A DNA stretch of 64,000 nt, taken from NCBI GenBank assembly GCA_902520885.1, contig CABYPW010000002.1:62001-126000 (forward strand), written 5' to 3'. Positions 2,866-44,259 of the stretch are shown here, piece after piece. A model generated the notes under the pieces. That model had not been told where the DNA came from. It was given only the letters and a program-made list of their open reading frames with translations, and did no database searches. The stretch is from an uncultured SAR116 cluster alpha proteobacterium (GTDB lineage Bacteria; Pseudomonadota; Alphaproteobacteria; Puniceispirillales; Puniceispirillaceae). The first letter of the stretch is position 1, and every line of letters starts with the position of its first letter. The translations under genes were made by a program, and so were the position numbers.

Positions 2866-3423
2866 TTAGTCCCAAGCCTCGCCTTTAAAATCTGACTCAA
2901 TAAAAAGTCGGTCATAGTGCTCCCAACTAGGAGAATCTTCAAAGATTTCCTCAAAAATTGCAATGCCGAATTCACCTAATTTATTCAGAGCATTAGTTCT
3001 TCCTACGCCCACATTTATACCGATTATTTTTGCCAATGCTCTTGTTGCCCATACGGCGGCAAGAGGTTGTCTATCTATTTTACTAAATTTATCAGGGAGT
3101 TGTTCTGCAAAATTCTCTAATGAATTTATGTATTCAGTTATCTTTTCAAGCCTGTCTACCTTTGCACTTTCATCTGTTCTATAATGAAATGGCAATGATG
3201 AAACTGATAACTTAGCTTTTTTTAGGTGCTTAATGGCATCTAGTAAATTAGCTTTATCAATCTTGAAATTACCAAGATATTTGCTTTTTTCAATACGGAG
3301 CGCTTTTACATTTAGCCAAAAAGCAGTTTCAAGAAATTCTAATTCCTCGTCTGAAACGTCATTATTATATTTTAAAATAATGCTTTTGATATTTATTTTG
3401 TCATGATGCTTGAGTTTAGCCAT
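2866..3423 (-). CDS. Unknown 185-residue protein coupled to integrase
   Basis: I do not recognise this family. The protein is soluble, rich in charged helices (residues 20-115), and has no signal peptide or membrane segment. A moderately conserved-looking patch lies at about 118-140 (A-V-W-A-T-R-A-L-A-K-I-I-G). Its ATG lies inside the end of the upstream integrase gene, an 8-base overlap, so the two are almost certainly co-transcribed and translationally coupled. Genes coupled to P4-type integrases may be directionality or regulatory factors or cargo; which applies here is not visible. Confidence 0.65.
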   Translation of the reverse strand: MAKLKHHDKINIKSIILKYNNDVSDEELEFLETAFWLNVKALRIEKSKYLGNFKIDKANLLDAIKHLKKAKLSVSSLPFHYRTDESAKVDRLEKITEYINSLENFAEQLPDKFSKIDRQPLAAVWATRALAKIIGINVGVGRTNALNKLGEFGIAIFEEIFEDSPSWEHYDRLFIESDFKGEAWD

Positions 3424-4696
3424 TCAAAAATTCATTCCATTTTTTCATCATATCATGCCGTGGCTTTGGATCTGTGGCATGGTCATAAATCTTAGACATA
3501 CCTTGTTTGCGATGCGCTAATTGTGCTTCAGAAATCTCATCTAGAAAGTTGTTTTCTGTTGCCCACGTTTTGAACGTATGACGAATTCCATGCGCAGTAG
3601 GGTTGTTTCGTGAATCTGGGTGACGATAACGAGGCATATTTTCTTTGCCAATCACGCGTTCTAGAGTGCGTTTAGGGCTGTTATGGTCAATATGCCCCCA
3701 TTTAGTATCTGCTGGAAATAATCTGCTAGAATTGGTTCTAAATTTCTTCAGACGTTCCAAAATATCATAGCTGGGCTGGAATAATTCTGAACGCCATCTG
3801 GAAGGGTTTCCTCCCTTCATTTTGTCAGCAGATATCTCAAATGCATTGGTATCCAAATTTTCTATTTCATGCCATTCCATCTCAACCGCATTTTCAGGGC
3901 GGCAGATATGAAGCAACTGCCATGCTAGACATAAGTCGTGTAGATTATCTTTATCTTTTAGCTTTTGAAATATTTCAGGCGCATATTTAGGATCTAAGAA
4001 ACCACGCGGCTTTTTTTGATAACTCGGTTTTAGCTGTTCATCTTCAAGACTAAAGTCAGCTGGATTATCTTTTCTAAGGCGGTGCGTTCTGGATTTAGCT
4101 AATGCAAAGATTTGCTGAAGATTGCGTTTTACTTTAAGCGCGGTTGTATATTTGGAAAAAACGAAATCATCGTAAGTAAGTAAACTGACAATATCATCTT
4201 CGGTTATATCTTCTATAAACATTTTGCCTAAGTGGGGCAGGGCATGATTTTCTAGATAACCCAGATTATTCTTTTCAGTTTTTGGATTTTTCCATTGGTT
4301 AGTTTTTAGTTTGTGTTCCACCCAAATTTTAACAAATCCACTAAATAGCGTTTTGTTTTCTTCTACGAATGATTCTTGTTCATCCAGCGTTTTTGTGGAT
4401 AGCTTTTCAAACAAGTTAGTTATTCCAACCAGCTTAAGTTCATGTTTAATTAAACTAATAGATTTAGTTTGCGCTAATGCTTTCAGCTGGCTGTTATACT
4501 TCTTTGCATCCGCCAGTTTAATATCTGGAAATTTTCCAAAGGTTATTGGATGTAACTTGTTGCCATCAAAAACCAAGCTTCTGAATGTTTTGGAACCAGT
4601 TTTAGAAATTCTCACTGATAATGAGTCACCAAGTTTAAAATCTTGATAATTTTTTGATGCTGGAACTTTGATAGAATTTAATTGTCGTTCATTCAT
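3416..4696 (-). CDS. P4-type tyrosine integrase
   Basis: A 426-residue tyrosine recombinase for site-specific integration and excision of a genomic island or prophage. The N-terminus (about 20-75) matches the arm-type DNA-binding domain (DUF4102-like; T-F-G-K-F-P at 52-57). A core-binding SAM-like region follows at 115-215. The catalytic domain keeps all expected residues: R266 (C-R-P-E), K292, H369-x-x-R372 (H-G-I-R-H-T-F), H395 (Q-L-A-H) and nucleophile Y404. Length is normal and nothing is missing, so it should be active. Two direct copies of TAGGTAAAA lie just upstream (about 4734-4753) and could be arm sites. It overlaps the next gene on the same strand. No attachment site pair for it was identified inside the window. 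Confidence 0.92.
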   Translation of the reverse strand: MNERQLNSIKVPASKNYQDFKLGDSLSVRISKTGSKTFRSLVFDGNKLHPITFGKFPDIKLADAKKYNSQLKALAQTKSISLIKHELKLVGITNLFEKLSTKTLDEQESFVEENKTLFSGFVKIWVEHKLKTNQWKNPKTEKNNLGYLENHALPHLGKMFIEDITEDDIVSLLTYDDFVFSKYTTALKVKRNLQQIFALAKSRTHRLRKDNPADFSLEDEQLKPSYQKKPRGFLDPKYAPEIFQKLKDKDNLHDLCLAWQLLHICRPENAVEMEWHEIENLDTNAFEISADKMKGGNPSRWRSELFQPSYDILERLKKFRTNSSRLFPADTKWGHIDHNSPKRTLERVIGKENMPRYRHPDSRNNPTAHGIRHTFKTWATENNFLDEISEAQLAHRKQGMSKIYDHATDPKPRHDMMKKWNEFLNG

Positions 4697-5295: not shown

Positions 5296-6146
5296 TTAGA
5301 TATTAATTTCATTTGGAATGAACAGGTAGTCGCAACTAAAGTAATTTTCTTTCCAAAGGACGTTTTTAGGAAATTGGTTTATTAGCTCTAATCCGGTTAA
5401 AATCTGAAGAAATTTTTTATCTATGATACATTTAAAAATTTTATAATTAATTTTATGTAGTATTTTTTCAAGCTCGGTTTTTCTTCTGTTATTCAACTCT
5501 ATTTCTGAGTTTCTATGAGAATGTAAAACTTCACAGATTATTGCTGGTCGTTTTTGATTTATTATATCTAAACCTCCTGAGATAACCTCATTTTCAAAGC
5601 CTTCGACATCAATTTTCATTATGAAATTAGGTAATAATTCGTCACCTAGTGTTTGGGATAACGTATAAGAAGGGATAAATTCACCTTTTAAAGTTTGGTA
5701 GGTGTCCGGTCTTATTTCTGAAATAAGAGTAGCAGAACTGTCCAAATCAGATTTTTTAAAAATCTTTAAAGGCTGATTTTGATGACTGCATGCCCAAGGA
5801 AATATTACACTGTTAATATTGATTGATTTATTTATAGATTTAAGAATGTTAAATGCTTCAATATTTGGCTCAAAACCATAGTACTTTACCCTGGGGTTAT
5901 TTATAAAATTTCCATTAACGTCTGGCCATAGTTTGCACCTACGTCAACGAAAACATCCGAATTAAATGTTTTGGATAAGTAAGAAACCAAAGAAGATTTG
6001 AAACCGTTTTTTATAAAAGTTAATGAATTTGTTGTTTCTTCGGCTAACTTGCCCGGGAAATTATTATTGGGAATGCTCCATTTTAATTCTTTAACAACCG
6101 ATATGGCTTCAGGATGATTTGGCTTCAGATTAATGATTTGTGCCAT
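5296..6146 (-). pseudogene. FkbM-family methyltransferase, frameshifted
   Basis: Two minus-strand pieces together form one FkbM-type SAM-dependent methyltransferase of about 283 residues. The first piece (6146 to about 5905) has the SAM motif V-F-V-D-V-G-A-N-Y-G-Q-T. Its frame then ends at a stop, while the neighbouring frame continues directly with Y-Y-G-F-E-P-N-I-E-A-F and runs through F-I-M-K-I-D-V-E-G-F-E to the end at 5296. One small indel near 5910-5940 explains this. The start ATG at 6146 is preferred over a TTG one codon earlier. FkbM enzymes O-methylate sugars or similar groups on glycans and secondary metabolites. The gene lies between two copies of an integrase-tail repeat, so it was probably island cargo that has decayed. 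A sequencing error is the alternative. Confidence 0.75.
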
Positions 6147-6149
6147 CAA

Positions 6150-6431
6150 TTAAATGCCCTCAAATATAATTAAAATTTGTAAAAATCTTTTTTAAAGTTA
6201 ACTACTTCGTATTCATTTTCAAATGAAAATATTTTGAACGATAATTCAATCGGGACTGAAGCATTTTATTTTTTTAAAAATTTCATATTAAATTTCGGTT
6301 TTGATACCAAATTAAATCTTGAGTAGAGTAGTTAGGTATTCGAACAGACTTGCATTGCTTGCTATTCCTGTTTGGGGTAACACTGTTGGTTATAATACCT
6401 TTTAAGCTATTGATTTTAATTACTTTTAATC
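6150..6431. other. AT-rich gap, no gene seen
   Basis: There is no coding frame or RNA signature. It separates the FkbM remnant from the second integrase-tail repeat. Confidence 0.3.
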
Positions 6432-6560
6432 CCCTACGAGATGCCACAGAAATATGATAATTTCAATAAGTTTGAGCGCTTTTCCTCGGTTTTGCCTCCT
6501 ATGCTAGCTACTCACCACCGGTCAAGGAAGTTCTGCAACATTTGACTGGAATGGTCGCTT
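6432..6560 (-). repeat. Integrase-tail repeat, copy 2
   Basis: The counterpart of 4893-5025. The minus strand encodes S-D-H-S-S-Q-M-L-Q-N-F-L-D-R-W and a stop at 6512. This matches the tail of the decayed integrase of copy 1 in the same frame, although most of the catalytic domain is gone here. Same orientation as copy 1, so the pair forms direct repeats about 1.5 kb apart. Confidence 0.6.
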
Positions 6561-36847: not shown

Positions 36848-36924
36848 CGGAGCGTAGCGCAGCCTGGTAGCGCACTACACTGGGGGTGTAGGGGTCGCAG
36901 GTTCAAATCCTGCCGTTCCGACCA
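36848..36924 (+). tRNA. tRNA-Pro(GGG)
   Basis: 77 bases with a complete cloverleaf. Acceptor CGGAGCG pairs with CGTTCCG (one G-T). The anticodon stem CTACA/TGTAG encloses a loop with anticodon GGG, the T-arm is GCAGG-TTCAAAT-CCTGC, and CCA is encoded. Its 3' half is duplicated at 38592-38650, marking it as an integration site. Confidence 0.95.
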
Positions 36925-37185
36925 ACCCCTAACGTATTGATTACGATAGTCTTTCAGGGAAAATAAAACAACCTCGGCCTCAGTAGTCATAGAGTCTTTT
37001 GGCGTAACTATGGCGTAGAAGGAGTTAGTATTATGTCATCTATTTACAAGCGTAGTGGGAGTTTTGAAGAACAGTTCCTGAATTCAAATAAAAAAAGCAT
37101 AAACAGTATTTATGGAAATTAAAAATTATTGGCATATGAGTTGCATTTACAAAGTAACCCTAATTTCTATAAAAATTAAATAACC
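36925..37185. other. Left end of tRNA-Pro island remnant
   Basis: After the tRNA comes sequence with two close TGGCGTA copies (around 36999-37017). These resemble integrase arm sites and also occur at the other end of the island (38455-38487). The remaining bases hold only the integrase start fragment described separately. Confidence 0.4.
37033..37122 (+). pseudogene. N-terminal stub of a phage-type integrase
   Basis: A 29-codon frame starts [11 protein letters not shown] after GGAG (37021-37024), the common opening of phage tyrosine integrases. It loses similarity after about ten residues and soon stops. Position directly behind a tRNA, oriented away from it, is where an integrase gene belongs. 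The rest appears deleted. Confidence 0.5.
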
Positions 37186-38211
37186 ATGAATAACTTAGCT
37201 TCTATTACAACAAAAAAAAATTGGCTTAATCAAGAGATGTTTCGATTTTCAAATAGATTTGAAAACACAAATTTTGATTTTTTAGCAAGTGAAGATTCAA
37301 CGCAAAATGAAATATATTATTTAGAGAGAATAGGAGATTTCGACAACGCACTCGCTAAGAGTTATTTGGCAGCTATTTTACAAGGAAATCAATTATGGCA
37401 AGTGGAAGCTATGTGTATTTTGATAGCACACGGGCGCTTTGATCAAGCCAGGCAGATTGGTATGAATTTAATTAAAGAAAAAAGCGATGTTGTAAATAAG
37501 ATTATTAAAATTATTGATTATATTCAAAATTATGGTATGGAAAAATCATTTAAATTCAGAAATATAAATTATACATTTAATGTTTCTGGTCAAAATTGGG
37601 AGATTGATAATGTTTTTATTGACGGCCGATTTTATGAGTTAAAAGAAATTGAATTAATTAGAAAGTTTATCCCAGACAATGGTGTTTTTTTAGATATAGG
37701 AGCTAACGTAGGAAATCATTCAATTTTTATAAATAAAAACAGACCAGATGTAAAAATAATTCCAATTGAGCCAGAGCCAAGAGCTGTAAGTATATTAAAA
37801 TCCAACATTAGACTAAACAAATGTAACAATATTAACACTAATTTTCTCGGGTATGCTATGTCATGCAGGCCTGGCTTTTCTTATCTTCAATGGAGGAGTT
37901 CTATTACAAGCACCCATATATCTTTAAGAAACGGCGAACTCATAGAAGAGGGTATAAAAGTTCCTTGCATATTGTTGCAAGAAATTATTTGTAAAAATGC
38001 TTTTCTAAAGCTTGATATAGAGGGTATGGAACGATTTATTTTAAACGATGCAAAAGATATCCTAATTAAGAACAAACCGACTTTAATGATTGAATGTTTA
38101 AAATCACACAAACATAATAATTTAAATGAAATGCTGGACGGAATAAATTTCGAAGTCAGGGCAAGTATAGACTTGCCTGATGGACACAATCACTTAATTC
38201 AAATACTATGA
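37186..38211 (+). CDS. FkbM-family SAM-dependent methyltransferase
   Basis: 341 residues. Residues 40-115 are helical and TPR-like. The methyltransferase domain (about 150-335) has F-L-D-I-G-A-N-V-G-N (168-177) for SAM, then I-P-I-E-P-E-P-R-A and the F-L-K-L-D-I-E-G-M-E block. Predicted role is O-methylation of a glycan or similar polymer. It is the only intact cargo gene of the 1.7 kb island between tRNA-Pro and the duplicated tRNA end. The other FkbM gene in this window (5296-6146) is also next to integrase remnants but is frameshifted. Confidence 0.82.
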   Translation: MNNLASITTKKNWLNQEMFRFSNRFENTNFDFLASEDSTQNEIYYLERIGDFDNALAKSYLAAILQGNQLWQVEAMCILIAHGRFDQARQIGMNLIKEKSDVVNKIIKIIDYIQNYGMEKSFKFRNINYTFNVSGQNWEIDNVFIDGRFYELKEIELIRKFIPDNGVFLDIGANVGNHSIFINKNRPDVKIIPIEPEPRAVSILKSNIRLNKCNNINTNFLGYAMSCRPGFSYLQWRSSITSTHISLRNGELIEEGIKVPCILLQEIICKNAFLKLDIEGMERFILNDAKDILIKNKPTLMIECLKSHKHNNLNEMLDGINFEVRASIDLPDGHNHLIQIL

Positions 38212-38300
38212 ATTGTTAAGTAATTTCCGAAATTTAGACGATAACGCCATTGTTTTGGAAGCTTTTTTATCAAATTTTAAAGAGCCATTTCCGAATATAA

Positions 38301-38485
38301 CCAATCATTTGTCGTCCTAATAGTTGTGGGTAGGTAGGGGACAGTATTTGGAGTGGGACACTATTACAGACCCCTACGTGGGCTATGTAGTGGTCTTTCT
38401 GTAATCTCTTCGTTAGGCAAATAAATATCCATTTCTGTTCGCTACGTTTTTATAGTGGCGCGTAGTTGTGGCGTAAATTTGGCGT
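38301..38485 (+). repeat. Dispersed intergenic repeat, copy A
   Basis: Similar to 43209-43375 and 43873-43970. Shared blocks include AGTTGTG-GTAGG, CCCCTACGTG, TAATCTCT-CGT-AGGC and ATTTCTGTTCG. It ends in three GGCGTA-type copies near the duplicated tRNA end. No coding capacity. Probably remnants of a family of element ends. Confidence 0.6.
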
Positions 38486-38591
38486 AATAAAATCAGAAAG
38501 TAGATTCACATAAGTGTTTGTATGTGGCACACTTTCTTGAGCCATTTGGTATGGCTACAGAGTACACGCAGTTGTTCTCTGAAAGACCTGT

Positions 38592-38650
38592 TAGCGCACT
38601 ACACTGGGGGTGTAGGGGTCGTGTGGGTTCGAATCCCGCCGCTCCGACCA
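38592..38650 (+). repeat. Duplicated 3' half of tRNA-Pro (attachment-site remnant)
   Basis: A 30-base perfect match to tRNA-Pro positions 36868-36897, followed by a diverged T-arm (two extra bases) and CCGCTCCGACCA. The acceptor 5' strand and D-arm are missing, so it is not a functional tRNA. It forms the distal boundary (att) of a tRNA-Pro island of about 1.7 kb. Confidence 0.8.
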
Positions 38651-39075
38651 TTTAAATTAAATTCATAATAAAAGCATTTTAATATGTGCCTAATATTAAT
38701 CATTGTTTAATTTAACTTTCTTTAATATCATTTAAACATAAAGAAGATGTAAACTCATTATCGACATGATATTTTTATCTCCCCTTTATTTTCGGACCAT
38801 TTCTGGATCAACTATGTTTTTCGCCCACTTTAGTAATAGAAATTGTTTTTATTTTTAAACCTTTTGTCATTTCAATTACGTACCTTAGTAAGATCAACTA
38901 TTTTTCCTTTATACGATGATGATTATTCAAAAAAAATATAAATCGTTGCTAAAGTCTTAAGCATTTTTAGGAAAGATATTTAAATGATCCTCAACAATTC
39001 CACTCCTTTAAAATATATGTTATGAACAAGATACATTTTTAAATTCATTCTTCTAATCTTCTATGCTTAATATCT
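38651..39075. other. AT-rich gap, no gene seen
   Basis: Both strands were read and show no coding frame with a start signal. Two AGTTGATC copies occur on the minus strand (about 38810-38900) without other structure. The region ends at the GAF-domain gene. Confidence 0.3.
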
Positions 39076-39906
39076 ATGCAAATTGCTAAATTACCAAAAA
39101 ATGAAAAAGCTCGAGTTAATAAACTAATAGCCACCGGGGTTCTTAATGCAGATAGGCATAAGCAGTTCACAATTTTTAATGAAGTTGCAAAAGTCATCAC
39201 TAATTGTACTTCCAGTTTTGTAAACATAATTGACCAAGATACACAACATTCATTAAGCAGTTCTGGGTTGGAGACAGATTTTTCAAAACCGTTGCCACGG
39301 AAAGAATCAATATGCCAATTTGCATTGCTTGATCCTGAACCTACTATTGTTCCAGACTTAACTAAAGATGAACGTTTCTCTTCAATGTCTATTGTTAAAG
39401 GATATCCAAATTTAATGTTTTATGCTGGCTTTCCTCTCATCACAAATGAAGGATTAATACTTGGGACCTTATGTGTCATGGACTTTCAACCCAGACAATT
39501 AAGTAAAGAGCAAATAAGATTAATGAAGAACCTTACAATAAATATTTGCCATCAAATAATTAATCTGCAGGCTCAAAAATCTTTAATTCTTGAAAAAACA
39601 AAAAAAATTCTCATCCTTATAAAAGAAATCGCGCCTGAATGTACTATTGAAAACATCACAGCATTTGTTAATTTTGCAGATACTGGAGTTTTTGACGTAA
39701 ATACTACCACAGAATTAGTAAAGTTGGGTTTAGTTGAGCGTTCATCTACTAAAACCTCAAGCGGTTATCAGATATCAAAAGTAGCTCAAAAGATTGCTTT
39801 AGAGTTAGGTGAATTTGAAAAGCCATATAGCGGTACGATTTTAAGCGAAGTTGACTCACGAATTAATGTAGATGAATTGCTCAAGCAGATTGATGGAGAT
39901 TTTTAA
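39076..39906 (+). CDS. GAF-domain sensor protein
   Basis: 276 residues, soluble. Residues 20-165 form a GAF domain of the short type found with cyclases and histidine kinases: S-F-V-N-I-I-D, E-S-I-C-Q-F-A-L, Y-A-G-F-P-L-I and G-T-L-C-V-M-D. Residues 165-276 are a helical domain with no recognised enzyme motif; T-T-E-L-V-K-L-G-L-V-E-R-S could be a winged helix. It may bind a small ligand and act through a partner. It overlaps the next gene by one base. Confidence 0.75.
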   Translation: MQIAKLPKNEKARVNKLIATGVLNADRHKQFTIFNEVAKVITNCTSSFVNIIDQDTQHSLSSSGLETDFSKPLPRKESICQFALLDPEPTIVPDLTKDERFSSMSIVKGYPNLMFYAGFPLITNEGLILGTLCVMDFQPRQLSKEQIRLMKNLTINICHQIINLQAQKSLILEKTKKILILIKEIAPECTIENITAFVNFADTGVFDVNTTTELVKLGLVERSSTKTSSGYQISKVAQKIALELGEFEKPYSGTILSEVDSRINVDELLKQIDGDF

Positions 39907-40244
39907 TGTTTTCCTCAATCATAAATTTAAAATTTCCAAGTACTGCGGAGGCAAAAATAGCGGCCAGTCATTTCTCTGAAATATTAGGCTCTAAAATTTC
40001 TCATTATGACTATCTCGGCATCCAGATAACGATAGGAAAATCTGGAGAGTTATCAGTTTGTGTTAGGTTCGACGAGGCAATACGGCTCAAAAAATTTGAA
40101 AACGATGTTTCTGGTTTGCTTTCAGATATTAAAAAATCCTTTATTTATAAAGAAGAAAAATACACAGGTGTGTGCATCTATAGCTTTGAACGGGAAGCAC
40201 AAAATTCAGCAGTGAATATATCAACAGGTAAAACAGTTAATTGA
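39906..40244 (+). CDS. Unknown 112-residue protein coupled to GAF gene
   Basis: Soluble, mixed alpha/beta, no signal peptide or known motif. ATG overlaps the GAF gene stop (TAATG), so the two are translated together and may work together. Family not recognised. Confidence 0.6.
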   Translation: MFSSIINLKFPSTAEAKIAASHFSEILGSKISHYDYLGIQITIGKSGELSVCVRFDEAIRLKKFENDVSGLLSDIKKSFIYKEEKYTGVCIYSFEREAQNSAVNISTGKTVN

Positions 40245-40370
40245 CATAAGCGACATTTAAAACAAAGTCAGTATAAAAAAGTTTAACTTAAAAGCAAAGC
40301 TCGTATCTCCACTCATAATATATTTTTAAATAATCTCCGTTCCCTCATATTTCATCAAACAAACCCCCTA

Positions 40371-40538
40371 TCAGGCAATCGATTTATATCCTGTGTTACC
40401 AGTAATTAGGTAGATAGTCGTTTCAAATAACAAACCAAGTGTTAAAGCCACAAAAAAACGTAAACGATCTCCAAGACCAAAATTAATAAATAACGGTCTA
40501 CTTAAATAATAAAAAAGAATAAAAACAAAACCTGTCAT
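40371..40538 (-). CDS. Small two-helix membrane protein
   Basis: 55 residues. The ATG at 40538 is preceded at six bases by AAAAAGGAG, a near-ideal ribosome site. The peptide has two hydrophobic segments (about 4-20 and 29-47) split by a short basic loop (G-D-R-L-R-F-F). It lies alone, convergent with the GAF pair and divergent from the cyclase gene. No family is recognised. The combination of strong site, clean frame and helix pattern makes it a likely real gene. Confidence 0.6.
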   Translation of the reverse strand: MTGFVFILFYYLSRPLFINFGLGDRLRFFVALTLGLLFETTIYLITGNTGYKSIA

Positions 40539-40726
40539 GGCACTCCTTTTTAACTCACTGCATGTATAAGTGGATTTTGAGCATTAGCTTATACCGTACG
40601 TAATTCATATAGCAGACAAAATATCGTTCATAATTTTTATAAATGCTTGCTTGTTATAAAATTACGGAATATTTTTATCTTGGTTTGTAAATAAGATATT
40701 TTTATTTTAAATCAAATAAAAAATAA

Positions 40727-40749
40727 TATAATCTTATAGTAAGATTATA
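40727..40749. promoter_or_regulatory. Inverted repeat upstream of cyclase gene (candidate operator)
   Basis: A perfect 10-bp inverted repeat TATAATCTTA-TAG-TAAGATTATA about 55 bases before the cyclase ATG. It has the size and symmetry of a dimeric repressor or activator site. It is not followed by a T run, so a terminator is unlikely. Confidence 0.45.
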
Positions 40750-40804
40750 TTTATTACAGCTGCGCTAATAAAATTTTAAATTTAATAAAAGTCTCCAAGT
40801 TTCT

Positions 40805-42634
40805 ATGAATGAAAATGTCGTTAAATTAGAAAATAATTTTAATCAAGTTATAGAACGCAAAATTGCAGTCATATTCGTTACTGACGTAGTTGGTTTCAGT
40901 AAATTAATGGAAATTAACGAGGATGAGACATTAAAGAGCTTTAGAGCCTGCAGAGATATATTAGACAATTTATTTTCAGAGTATGGTGGAAGAATTTTCA
41001 ATACTGCTGGAGATTCTGTTTTAGCGGAATTTCAGAGTGCTGTTTCAGCAGTCGTTTGTGCGAGTGAATTTCAGAAACTTATTAAAGAAAGAAATGCAAT
41101 ATTATCCAATGATTCTAAAATAGAATTTAGAGTTGGAATTAATATGGGAGATGTCATTGTGGAGGGAGAAAATCTTTATGGTGACGGTGTTAATGTTGCT
41201 GCGAGATTAGAGGCTCTTTCCCAGTCCGGTGGAGTTTGTTTATCTAAAAGTATAATGGACTTTGTAAATAAAAAAACTGAGTTTCTTTTTAATGATTTGG
41301 GAGAACAAAAAGTAAAAAATACTATTGTTCATGCTTTTGATCTTAATGATCCTGATTTAGAAAAGCGTTCTAATATTGATGAAACTGTTGCTGCTGCTGC
41401 ATCTGCAAAAATAAAAGAAGGTAGTGTGCCACCAACCATTGCTGTTCTGCCTTTCACGAACCTGAGCACAGATCCAGAACAAGAGTTCTTTGCGGATGGG
41501 ATAACAGAAGACACAATCTCTTATTTTTCAAAATCAAAGACTTTTCCAGTTGTTTCATTAAATTCAGTTCTGAAATATAAGGATAATAAAGAAGCAACTA
41601 AAGATATAGCAAATGATTTGAATGCGGATTATTTAGTTCAGGGAAGCATTCGAAAAAGTGGAAATAAAGTAAGAATATCTGTGAAACTCACAGATACATT
41701 AGAAGATATTCAAATTTGGTCTCAAACCTGGGATAGAATTTTAGATGATGTGTTTGAAGTGCAGGATGAAGTATCACAGAAAGTTTCTGCTCTAGCCCAG
41801 CCGGCAATAATTATAAATGAACAAAATACGTTACATAATAAGAAACCAGAAATTTTAAGTGCATGGGACGAATATCTTCATGCATTAAACTCTTATGACA
41901 AAAATAGCGAGGCTAAAATTGTTGACGAAAAAATCAAATATATTTATGAGGCAATAGAGCATGCAGAAAAATCGATTGTACTCGATAAAAAATTAACCGA
42001 TGCGTATAATGTTCTTGCGTCGAGCTTATTTTTTCTTAGGTTAGAATCTTCTCTTCAACATGACCGAGAGAAAAATGAAACTAGGTTCAAGAAGGTTGCT
42101 GAAATAAGTTATAGCCTTGACCCTAACAATCCTGATTCTGTAATGAACATGGCATATTTGTATCGAATATCAGATGATGAGGTGAAATATCGGGAATTTG
42201 TTTATAAAGCAGTGGAAATAAACCCCCATCATCCAAGGTCATTATCAGCAAAAGGGATGCTTTATTTAAATGAGTGTGATTATGATAATTCAATTGAGTT
42301 ATTGACTAGGGCTTATGAAACCAATCCAAAAACGGTGCCTTTCTTAGAAATTATGCTTTTATTCTGTCATTTGGGAAAAAATGATTGGATTAGTGCTCAT
42401 CAATCAGTAGATAGAAGTATGCGAGAAAACGATCATAGCAGATTTCATGCTTTTAAAGCTATCATACTAGCACATGAAGGTAAGATCGATGAGAGTAAAC
42501 TATGGCTTGCCAAATATCAGAAAAACAGACCAGAAATTAAAACATTAGAGGATTACGAGAAAGTGGTTCCAGCTGTGAATCAAGATGTCAAAAATATTTT
42601 ATTGGATGGAGTGCGAAAAGCAGGCCTCAAGTAA
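40805..42634 (+). CDS. Class III cyclase with TolB-like and TPR domains
   Basis: 609 residues, soluble. The cyclase domain (about 15-180) has metal aspartates D27 and D70 and N-V-A-A-R (N130, R134). The purine-specifying lysine is replaced by N66 in F-N-T-A-G-D, so nucleotide specificity is uncertain. A TolB/FlgO-like region with I-A-V-L-P-F (about 215-345) follows, then TPR-type helices (350-600). This architecture is widespread in alphaproteobacteria. Expression may be controlled by the inverted repeat 55 bases upstream. No neighbour on the strand. Confidence 0.85.
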   Translation: MNENVVKLENNFNQVIERKIAVIFVTDVVGFSKLMEINEDETLKSFRACRDILDNLFSEYGGRIFNTAGDSVLAEFQSAVSAVVCASEFQKLIKERNAILSNDSKIEFRVGINMGDVIVEGENLYGDGVNVAARLEALSQSGGVCLSKSIMDFVNKKTEFLFNDLGEQKVKNTIVHAFDLNDPDLEKRSNIDETVAAAASAKIKEGSVPPTIAVLPFTNLSTDPEQEFFADGITEDTISYFSKSKTFPVVSLNSVLKYKDNKEATKDIANDLNADYLVQGSIRKSGNKVRISVKLTDTLEDIQIWSQTWDRILDDVFEVQDEVSQKVSALAQPAIIINEQNTLHNKKPEILSAWDEYLHALNSYDKNSEAKIVDEKIKYIYEAIEHAEKSIVLDKKLTDAYNVLASSLFFLRLESSLQHDREKNETRFKKVAEISYSLDPNNPDSVMNMAYLYRISDDEVKYREFVYKAVEINPHHPRSLSAKGMLYLNECDYDNSIELLTRAYETNPKTVPFLEIMLLFCHLGKNDWISAHQSVDRSMRENDHSRFHAFKAIILAHEGKIDESKLWLAKYQKNRPEIKTLEDYEKVVPAVNQDVKNILLDGVRKAGLK

Positions 42635-42787
42635 TTGAAATATTAAAAAAATAAAGTAAGACTTGGCTATTAACTTTATTAAGTTTAAGTGTGCTACAGA
42701 ACGCCAAGTACGATGTGTTTTTTTATCGCACTTACATTTAAATACTTAATACCAATTTCCGCCACATCCAGAGCATTTTTTTTGGGG

Positions 42788-43123
42788 TTAGCTTTCTGCA
42801 GATACCGGGGTTGCTCTGGTTTCTGTAAGCCACATTAATCCATCCTTTAACTGATGTACCGGCATAAGCGCTTCTCTATCACCTGAATCATAATTTAGTA
42901 TTTGATGCTCCACAATTATGTCATCATTTTCATAAATAAAGCCATGTTTTTCTACATTAGCAGCAACCATCCATTCCATCATATGATCCCAGTCAATATC
43001 CTCCATCTTTTTGGCTTCTCCCGTTGAGTGAATAACTAACTCATAATCATCATGATGACATTTCACGAAGGCAGTAATATCTTTTTCATTTTTCGCTTTT
43101 GTATATTTTTCGAAAAGGCTCAT
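42788..43123 (-). CDS. NTF2-like / SnoaL-like small protein
   Basis: 111 residues with the start L-F-E-K-Y-T-K-A-K-N-E-K-D and a D-D-Y-E-L-V-I-H strand, as in NTF2-like folds. These proteins are small cone-shaped enzymes or binding proteins of varied roles; no catalytic set is visible. Weak ribosome site. It lies in a stretch of small accessory genes separated by repeats. Confidence 0.65.
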   Translation of the reverse strand: MSLFEKYTKAKNEKDITAFVKCHHDDYELVIHSTGEAKKMEDIDWDHMMEWMVAANVEKHGFIYENDDIIVEHQILNYDSGDREALMPVHQLKDGLMWLTETRATPVSAES

Positions 43124-43208
43124 TTTTTGTCACTTTGATGATTCTAGATTAAATTAATATAAGGAATTGCCAGTCCTTAGTCTATTTGATTGCGAATTGA
43201 AGTAATTG

Positions 43209-43375
43209 TTTGAATTCCAAAAAGTTGTGAGTAGGGGAACGTGTTTGGAGAAGGTAGCTAAAACAGCCCCCTACGTGTGCGATGAAATGATTTTTCTATA
43301 ATCTCTACGTAAGGCCAATAAAAACCTATTTCTGTTCGTTACCTTTTTTAGTTACGCGTTATTAGTGGTATTCGG
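43209..43375 (+). repeat. Dispersed intergenic repeat, copy B
   Basis: Closest copy to 38301-38485: shares CCCCTACGTG, TAATCTCTACGTAAGGC, ATTTCTGTTCG and the trailing GCGT-TAGTGG segment. It lies between two minus-strand small genes. Confidence 0.6.
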
Positions 43376-43405
43376 CATACTAGTGTGCAAACTCTTGCTT
43401 GGTAT

Positions 43406-43708
43406 TTAGTTAGAATTTTCCTGATGAATTATTGTTCCAGAGTATGCTTTACAAACGTTTTCTTCATCTAAACGAACACATAGATCTTCAATAAGCTCAA
43501 TCATGTTGTGAGGGCCATTTACGTAGTCCATGAATGCGTCTATTGAGTTCCATTCATTTATTACTAGCAGCTGCTCCTCTCTGGTATGGACAATGCTATA
43601 AACGTTTAAACCATTTACACCATCTGCGCGACTTTGTACTATTAAATTAGTAATTTCATCAACTGCACCTTCTTTTGGGGTCACAGCTATTACGCTCATC
43701 ATTTTCAT
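43406..43708 (-). CDS. Antibiotic biosynthesis monooxygenase (ABM) domain protein
   Basis: 100 residues, ferredoxin-like fold of the ABM/YgiN type: V-I-A-V-T-P-K-E-G at the start, N-V-Y-S-I-V-H and L-V-I-N-E-W in the middle. Family members include quinol monooxygenases and heme-degrading enzymes; many act on small aromatics. ATG 43708 with TGGAG upstream. No reaction can be assigned. Confidence 0.75.
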   Translation of the reverse strand: MKMMSVIAVTPKEGAVDEITNLIVQSRADGVNGLNVYSIVHTREEQLLVINEWNSIDAFMDYVNGPHNMIELIEDLCVRLDEENVCKAYSGTIIHQENSN

Positions 43709-43872
43709 AATTTATACTCCAATATTGCGTCTTTGATTTAATAATTGGAGCCTCTCTCTCGTTGGGAGGTCCTGTATTTCTAAATGGGGTAATATTGCAA
43801 GTTTATTTGCTAAATTGAAAGATATTTTAGTCTTTTTCAGCAAGAAACGCGAAGACTGTTTTTTGAATTGAA

Positions 43873-43970
43873 CGAATCATTTATCTTCCTAAAATTTGTA
43901 AGTAGGAGAAAGTATTTGAAATAGGTAGCTTGCACATAGTCCTACTTGCGCTATGTAATTGTTTTCCTGT
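43873..43970 (+). repeat. Dispersed intergenic repeat, copy C
   Basis: A shorter, more diverged version of copies A and B (AATCATTT, GTAAGTAGG, TCCTACTTGCGCTATGTA). It ends about 20 bases before the terminator-like hairpin. Confidence 0.5.
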
Positions 43971-43991
43971 TTGAATATTTATTTTGGCATT

Positions 43992-44092
43992 AAAAAAAAG
44001 GACAGCACAAAGGCTGTCCAAGTTTAGGGAGGAAATATGCGTTAATGTATTTACGACTATTTCAAATTAATTTTAGCTTTTGTCTTTTTGCA
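43992..44092 (-). repeat. Dispersed repeat with terminator-like hairpin, copy 2
   Basis: Identical 7-bp stem and loop to copy 1 (44000-44006 with 44013-44019), with T run on the minus strand, and similar flank to about 44092. The minus strand before it reads K-K-T-K-A-K-I. Not attached to a present gene. Confidence 0.6.
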
Positions 44093-44259
44093 GGGCTGAT
44101 TTATTTCTTTTAGAATCAAAAAAATATAGAGACAAATTTGGTTACAATCTTATAATAGTCTCGTATTTTGTAAAATAAATCAAAAAATAGATTATTGCTA
44201 AATGAAAAGAAGTTAAAGTTGTATTTTAAATATAACAGTTGAAGTTATGGAGAAGTTAC

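Follow-up and report, generated by a model that had tools for sequence, protein, structure and literature searches.

What kind of DNA separates two copies of a tRNA-Pro(GGG) 3' end that lie 1.7 kb apart in a marine SAR116 genome, and how did a single intact gene come to stand between them? The question arises in a 64,000-nucleotide stretch from an uncultured SAR116-cluster alphaproteobacterium (hereafter the window, meaning the whole stretch that was analysed), whose source genome, G000, comprises 2.17 Mb in 39 contigs and is 95% complete. The nearest relatives available for comparison were other SAR116-cluster alphaproteobacteria, including the genus mates G001, G004, G008 and G009, and the comparison sets held 61 genomes of the family, 136 of the order and 385 of the class. 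The 1.7-kb segment is a reduced island bounded by tRNA sequence, with an FkbM-family methyltransferase gene as its only cargo. We consider it very likely that the segment is the decayed remnant of a tyrosine-integrase element that entered at tRNA-Pro(GGG), that its cargo was later exchanged, and that it is the outermost of several accreted layers. Coordinates are positions in the window, and features lie on the plus strand unless stated otherwise.

The tRNA-Pro(GGG) gene at 36848-36924 was called by both ARAGORN and Rfam (tRNA family, 62.3 bits). A 30-nt block, TAGCGCACTACACTGGGGGTGTAGGGGTCG, which spans this tRNA from the D-loop to the variable loop, is identical at 36868-36897 and 38592-38621; a search allowing up to three mismatches returned no third match, and 100 shuffles gave an expectation of 0.00. 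The distal copy runs on to 38650 through a complete but diverged T-arm and the 3' strand of the acceptor, and over 64 bp its similarity is 88-95%, varying with the reference allele. The unit thus bounded has a direct repeat of the tRNA 3' part at its far end and keeps both attachment (att) sites, and there is no recombinase among its genes. Inside each end lies a pair of arm-like sites, TGGCGTA-4 nt-TGGCGTA, with the same 11-bp period: the left pair occupies 37000-37017 (starts at 37000 and 37011) and the right pair, which is kept in G009, 38469-38486 (starts at 38469 and 38480). The heptamer occurs nine times in the window against 3.3 expected, and in the whole 2.17-Mb genome a close pair of it was found at these two places only. 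In these respects the initial annotation, which had described the recurrence of the tRNA 3' half 1.7 kb downstream with 30 identical bases and a segment flanked by TGGCGTA repeats, was borne out. The repeat search also returned a 13-nt inverted repeat, GTCTTTCAGGGAA at 36949-36961 and TTCTCTGAAAGAC at 38575-38587 (12 of 13 positions complementary, both copies kept in G009), which would bracket the core in the inferred attP; it is suggestive only and could be a product of chance.

Plain duplication of the tRNA gene, or a fortuitous repeat, would dispense with a mobile element altogether, and a second copy that has no 5' half and escapes detection as a tRNA is what a decayed duplicate should look like. 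This explanation has to accommodate, however, the absence of any match in the shuffles and the matching arm pairs at both ends, and partial 3' copies of tRNA-Pro recur in about 20 of the 61 family genomes, some of them enclosing intact integrases. It is largely refuted, and we give it hardly any weight.

Two alleles of the tRNA-Pro(GGG) 3' half help to establish which copy is native. The T-type (GTGGGTTCGAATCCCGC..CGCTCCG) is the family norm and has a minor variant with A in the loop; the C-type (GCAGGTTCAAATCCTGC..CGTTCCG) was found in six genomes of the genus, counting that of the window, and in G059 and G034. The window has the C-type in its intact tRNA and the T-type in the far copy. When the flanks are joined within the identical block, the result is a complete tRNA-Pro(GGG) of 79 bases whose acceptor is paired at seven positions (ARAGORN), the 3' strand of the distal copy pairing perfectly with the 5' acceptor strand of the tRNA, and at the opposite junction, that of the circle, no tRNA was detected. 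The tRNA is therefore whole after integration and rebuilt on joining of the flanks, and since the joined flanks give a complete tRNA with perfect acceptor pairing, the second copy represents the resident 3' half, displaced on integration. The intact gene now holds the 3' half brought by the incoming element: as attL, 36848-36924 unites a host 5' part with an element-supplied C-type half (GCAGGTTCAAATCCTGCCGTTCCGACCA) that includes the proximal core, and as attR, 38592-38650 unites the distal core with the displaced T-type host half, which bears a 2-nt insertion. The diverged T-arm of the second copy had at first been taken to hint that the attachment segment came from another host; the rebuilt tRNA and the T-type norm of the family reverse this assignment. 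We propose that an attP bearing a tRNA 3' half would have recombined with the tRNA-Pro(GGG) gene through a tyrosine integrase, leaving 36868-38650 as its remnant, and that the C-type half of the element would have kept the tRNA whole while the resident T-type half was displaced to the far end. In G004, where the order reads T-[12.8 kb]-C, it was accordingly a T-type element that entered a C-type site. The possibility that C-type tRNA ends are a constant marker of the element was considered and rejected, because G034 carries the C-type but no island, and G059 carries it without these ends.

The only trace of a possible integrase is a frame of 29 codons (37033-37122) that begins with an ATG directly after the left arm-like pair and ahead of the FkbM gene. 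In these genomes, integrase starts are commonly preceded at once by tandem arm repeats, and the position of the frame matches that of several integrases of other islands. We regard it as a putative integrase start for two reasons, namely its position after the arm-like repeats and a related decayed start that follows a TGGCGTA in G008. The combination of a double TGGCGTA with an integrase start occurred in the window only when the 136 order genomes were searched; one hit in a viral contig was dismissed as a chance match, being on a phage-like contig with no integrase there. Among the 61 family genomes, the other hits to the arm pair alone precede neither an integrase nor a tRNA. After integration, the integrase would have been lost save for its start, and both ends and one cargo gene would have persisted.

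If the segment is an acquired island, its content should differ among relatives, and this is what the locus displays. The gene order fabH-ihfA-merR-tRNA-Pro(GGG) is conserved on one side, and on the other the conserved flank starts near GFA (44239) and ALDH (44808); the region between tRNA and GFA/ALDH differs in every readable genus mate. In G004 a 12.8-kb segment that includes soxZ, a soxC-like gene of the sulfite-oxidase type and a soxB-like gene precedes the GAF and cyclase genes known from the window; in G008 related ends enclose an AEC-type permease, accompanied by the decayed integrase start; in G007 sugar-transport genes accompany an integrase fragment, and the site was accordingly rejected as an empty one; G001 and G003 have other gene sets. 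The sox genes of G004 (L066, G004:C6, 4936-9374) ride on an integrase-less tRNA-Pro island. In G009, which is another species, the FkbM unit is present as in the window and adjoins another island: a T copy follows the unit, and after it comes the left end of a G004-type island, a 600-bp stretch that is closely aligned in G001, G004 and G009. In G034, which belongs to another family, the tRNA is followed directly by the gene that is also next to the tRNA in G031, an island-free site outside the genus. Comparison of the tRNA-Pro locus in close relatives had been proposed from the outset as a check, and as the locus is differently filled in them, the case that would have spoken against an island, the same content everywhere with no empty site, fails.

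The cargo itself has a history of its own. The FkbM gene (37186-38211; 341 aa) scores 44.9 bits with PF05050 (cut-off 22.7; E 1.9e-11) and 83.4 bits with TIGR01444 (cut-off 37.7), which agrees with its original description as an intact methyltransferase gene and the single cargo; the enzyme probably acts on a surface glycan. A close relative was found in G009 only, the next best matches in the 385 class genomes (E<=1e-20) reaching about 29-31% over part of the protein. Relatives in phages reach only 26-30%, none was found in viral contigs, and none among solved structures. Between G000 and G009, synonymous divergence (dS) in this gene is 0.020 and nonsynonymous divergence (dN) 0.0047 over 263 codons, and dS is 0.18-0.45 in twelve other genes, of which four precede the island and eight follow it; the low dN is in keeping with a gene intact in both genomes, the changes being too few for a strong test of selection. 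Along the unit, 37413-38290 contains 6 substitutions in 878 bp, and the adjacent 38291-38622 about 22 in 332 bp (Fisher p=1.8e-8). The gene is 99.2% identical to that of G009, as against 93% for the right end and 95% for the left end (36925-37032, compared over 81 bp at the equivalent place), with the step in divergence at about 38290, near the start of a right-end block (38289-38463); the G009 contig breaks inside the unit and conceals the left limit of the low-divergence tract. The ends have diverged like core DNA, which places their age close to that of the split between the species; in one or both of these species the cargo is far younger. From these alignments, the FkbM cargo appears to have been exchanged between species recently and the ends to be old.

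How the gene travelled is a matter of weighing routes. One possibility is a mobile mini-island, that is, an integrase-less unit still excised and moved in trans, and hence between species, by integrases of the same arm and core specificity. The retention of both cores, with all 30 core bases identical, and of both arm pairs would fit such a unit, as would the recent movement of FkbM and the change of right-hand neighbour, which is a GAF gene in the window and another island in G009. Transfer of the whole unit would, however, leave it uniformly young, which the core-like divergence of the ends contradicts, and an integrase with matching TGGCGTA arms was not found in the 61 family genomes; we judge this route distinctly unlikely. 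Another possibility is a regular swapping of cargo between fixed island ends, with the right-end block as the recombination boundary. Related ends do enclose FkbM in two species and the permease in G008, the divergence step lies close to where the block begins, and the block recurs twice further in. Yet the G008 ends match at 77-86% only and in short stretches, the left boundary is hidden by the G009 contig break, single copies of the block fold differently with no Rfam family above cut-off, and ordinary homologous recombination yields an identical pattern. We consider regular swapping unlikely. The broader notion that integrase-less one-gene tRNA-Pro units of SAR116 bacteria offer their fixed ends as a docking frame, in which cargo is swapped cassette-like between species with no integrase of their own, strikes us as similarly doubtful. 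The divergence pattern calls for no integrase: it is explained by gene conversion within FkbM or by homologous recombination that spans the shared ends. We suggest that FkbM would have been exchanged between at least two species long after the ends had been established, the likeliest route being homologous recombination, either across these ends or inside the gene.

Several observations weigh against the reading of the segment as a decayed, tRNA-targeted remnant with later cargo exchange. The exact junction is empty in no genome of the genus, and no intact integrase-bearing relative of the element was found in the searches described above. The 29-codon frame by itself has no homolog (tblastn in plasmids and phages; Pfam), so that the initial annotation's integrase stub is retained for its position and the decayed start of G008 and not for any database match. 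The size of the unit in G009 is uncertain owing to the contig break within it. Finally, the history of the T and C alleles requires an extra step: to the left of the shared GAF gene, the window has a T-type junction and G004 a C-type one (38651 versus L066 2174-2123). No single simple insertion accounts for both of these ends; had the other island type been lost through recombination in the shared tRNA end, the T copy that precedes the GAF gene in the window would be explained.

The view of a reduced, one-gene island with which the annotation had started holds for the unit and is incomplete for the locus, since the unit makes up just the outer layer of a variable region that continues to a position of about 44.2 kb, and its cargo is younger than its ends. 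The older inner part (38651-44200) encodes a GAF protein, a 112-aa protein, a cyclase-TPR protein, and SnoaL-like and ABM-like proteins. Decayed copies of the right-end block recur there at 43190-43359 (74%) and 43865-43970 (71%), on either side of the small ABM-like gene, and are read as traces of older layers; the third copy of the block is orthologous in G004 and G009. The block was also considered as a structured RNA, a proposal rejected, without a test for covariation, in view of the lack of a common fold among single copies and of any Rfam family above cut-off there. The same lack of a common fold was observed with regard to the attC folding that an integron gene cassette would show, no search having been aimed at an integron integrase in particular. 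On the minus strand, 43985-44055 is likely an mmgR (alpha-r8) small RNA (Rfam RF00519, 35 bits against a gathering score of 41; E 4.7e-5). The cyclase-TPR gene (40805-42634) has dS of 0.43-0.70 to G003 and G001, compared with about 1.3-2.6 for most core genes there, a difference that indicates that it too has been exchanged between species.

Beyond the genus, tRNA-Pro(GGG) is a family-wide hot spot with tandem units. Similar units of 1.4-2 kb stand at tRNA-Pro in G052, G046, G062 and G047, each of them integrase-less: that of G052 (1.8 kb) carries one DUF4379 zinc-finger gene, that of G046 (1.6 kb) has a probable integrase start, MASVTKCRGRWATRVS, that of G062 (2.0 kb) carries a GAF gene and a 106-aa gene that are relatives of window 39076-40244, and that of G047 is of similar size. 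Islands with intact integrases stand at tRNA-Pro in G022 and G062, and in the latter (G062:C1:61264-83950; L159, L166) five tandem tRNA-Pro 3'-end copies bound modules of 2 to 13 kb. A second tRNA island lies at tRNA-Glu(TTC) (G000:C2:58142-58217), 3.8 kb left of the window, with a 19-bp 3'-end copy at 6428-6446. It includes an intact integrase (3416-4696, minus strand), a broken FkbM gene (5296-6149, minus strand) and a zinc-finger-type protein (window start to 1047), for which the tRNA-Pro island of G004 holds an 88% relative.

The locus offers a base-resolution view of the gain and exchange of a single gene at a tRNA in a streamlined ocean bacterium, and it illustrates a sequence in which the tRNA end would be replaced at entry, the mobility gene would decay, and cargo exchange between species would go on. 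The hot spot could help to locate recently exchanged surface-modification and metabolic genes in the SAR116 group. In the open-access literature searched for SAR116 together with genomic island and tRNA, no paper describes the locus by its title or abstract.

Several known systems resemble it in part. Cis-mobilizable elements (CIMEs) are remnants of integrative and conjugative or mobilizable elements that have attL and attR and no recombinase. The term appears in PMC3146451 and PMC5704250. The unit resembles them in its retained attL and attR, its lost integrase and its tandem accretion, and differs from them in that neither a conjugative relative nor a matching integrase in the family was found; mobilization in trans is only hypothetical here. 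The tycheposons of marine picocyanobacteria, as they are described in PMC10872708, use tyrosine recombinases, place cargo at tRNA genes and span 4-200 kb. They share with our locus the setting of cargo elements at tRNA genes in streamlined marine plankton, but the 1.7-kb unit is far smaller and contains no recombinase or other core gene. The ssrA islands of Dehalococcoides, in which cargo is 99.4% alike and the integration module 75.0% (PMC3146451), are likewise tandem, stand behind an RNA gene, are bounded by 3'-end repeats and have cargo more alike than the module; they use serine recombinases, however, and many keep an integration module, whereas here only a putative tyrosine-integrase start persists and the ends are 93-95% alike. 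Close counterparts are also the additive flexible genomic islands, of which the small tRNA-targeted cassettes of Ca. Actinomarinales, marked by a tRNA repeat (PMC7771536), and fGI-2 of Methylophilaceae, in which the last 20 bp of tRNA-Lys are repeated (PMC10872708), are examples. Accretion beside a tRNA and cross-species cargo are common to them and to the window locus, which is distinguished by its SAR116-type tRNA-Pro(GGG), its single 341-aa gene, and its visible arm sites and putative integrase start. Because such tRNA cassettes and islands with young cargo have already been described, the locus adds to a known type, the integrase-less tRNA island, another and well-resolved example.
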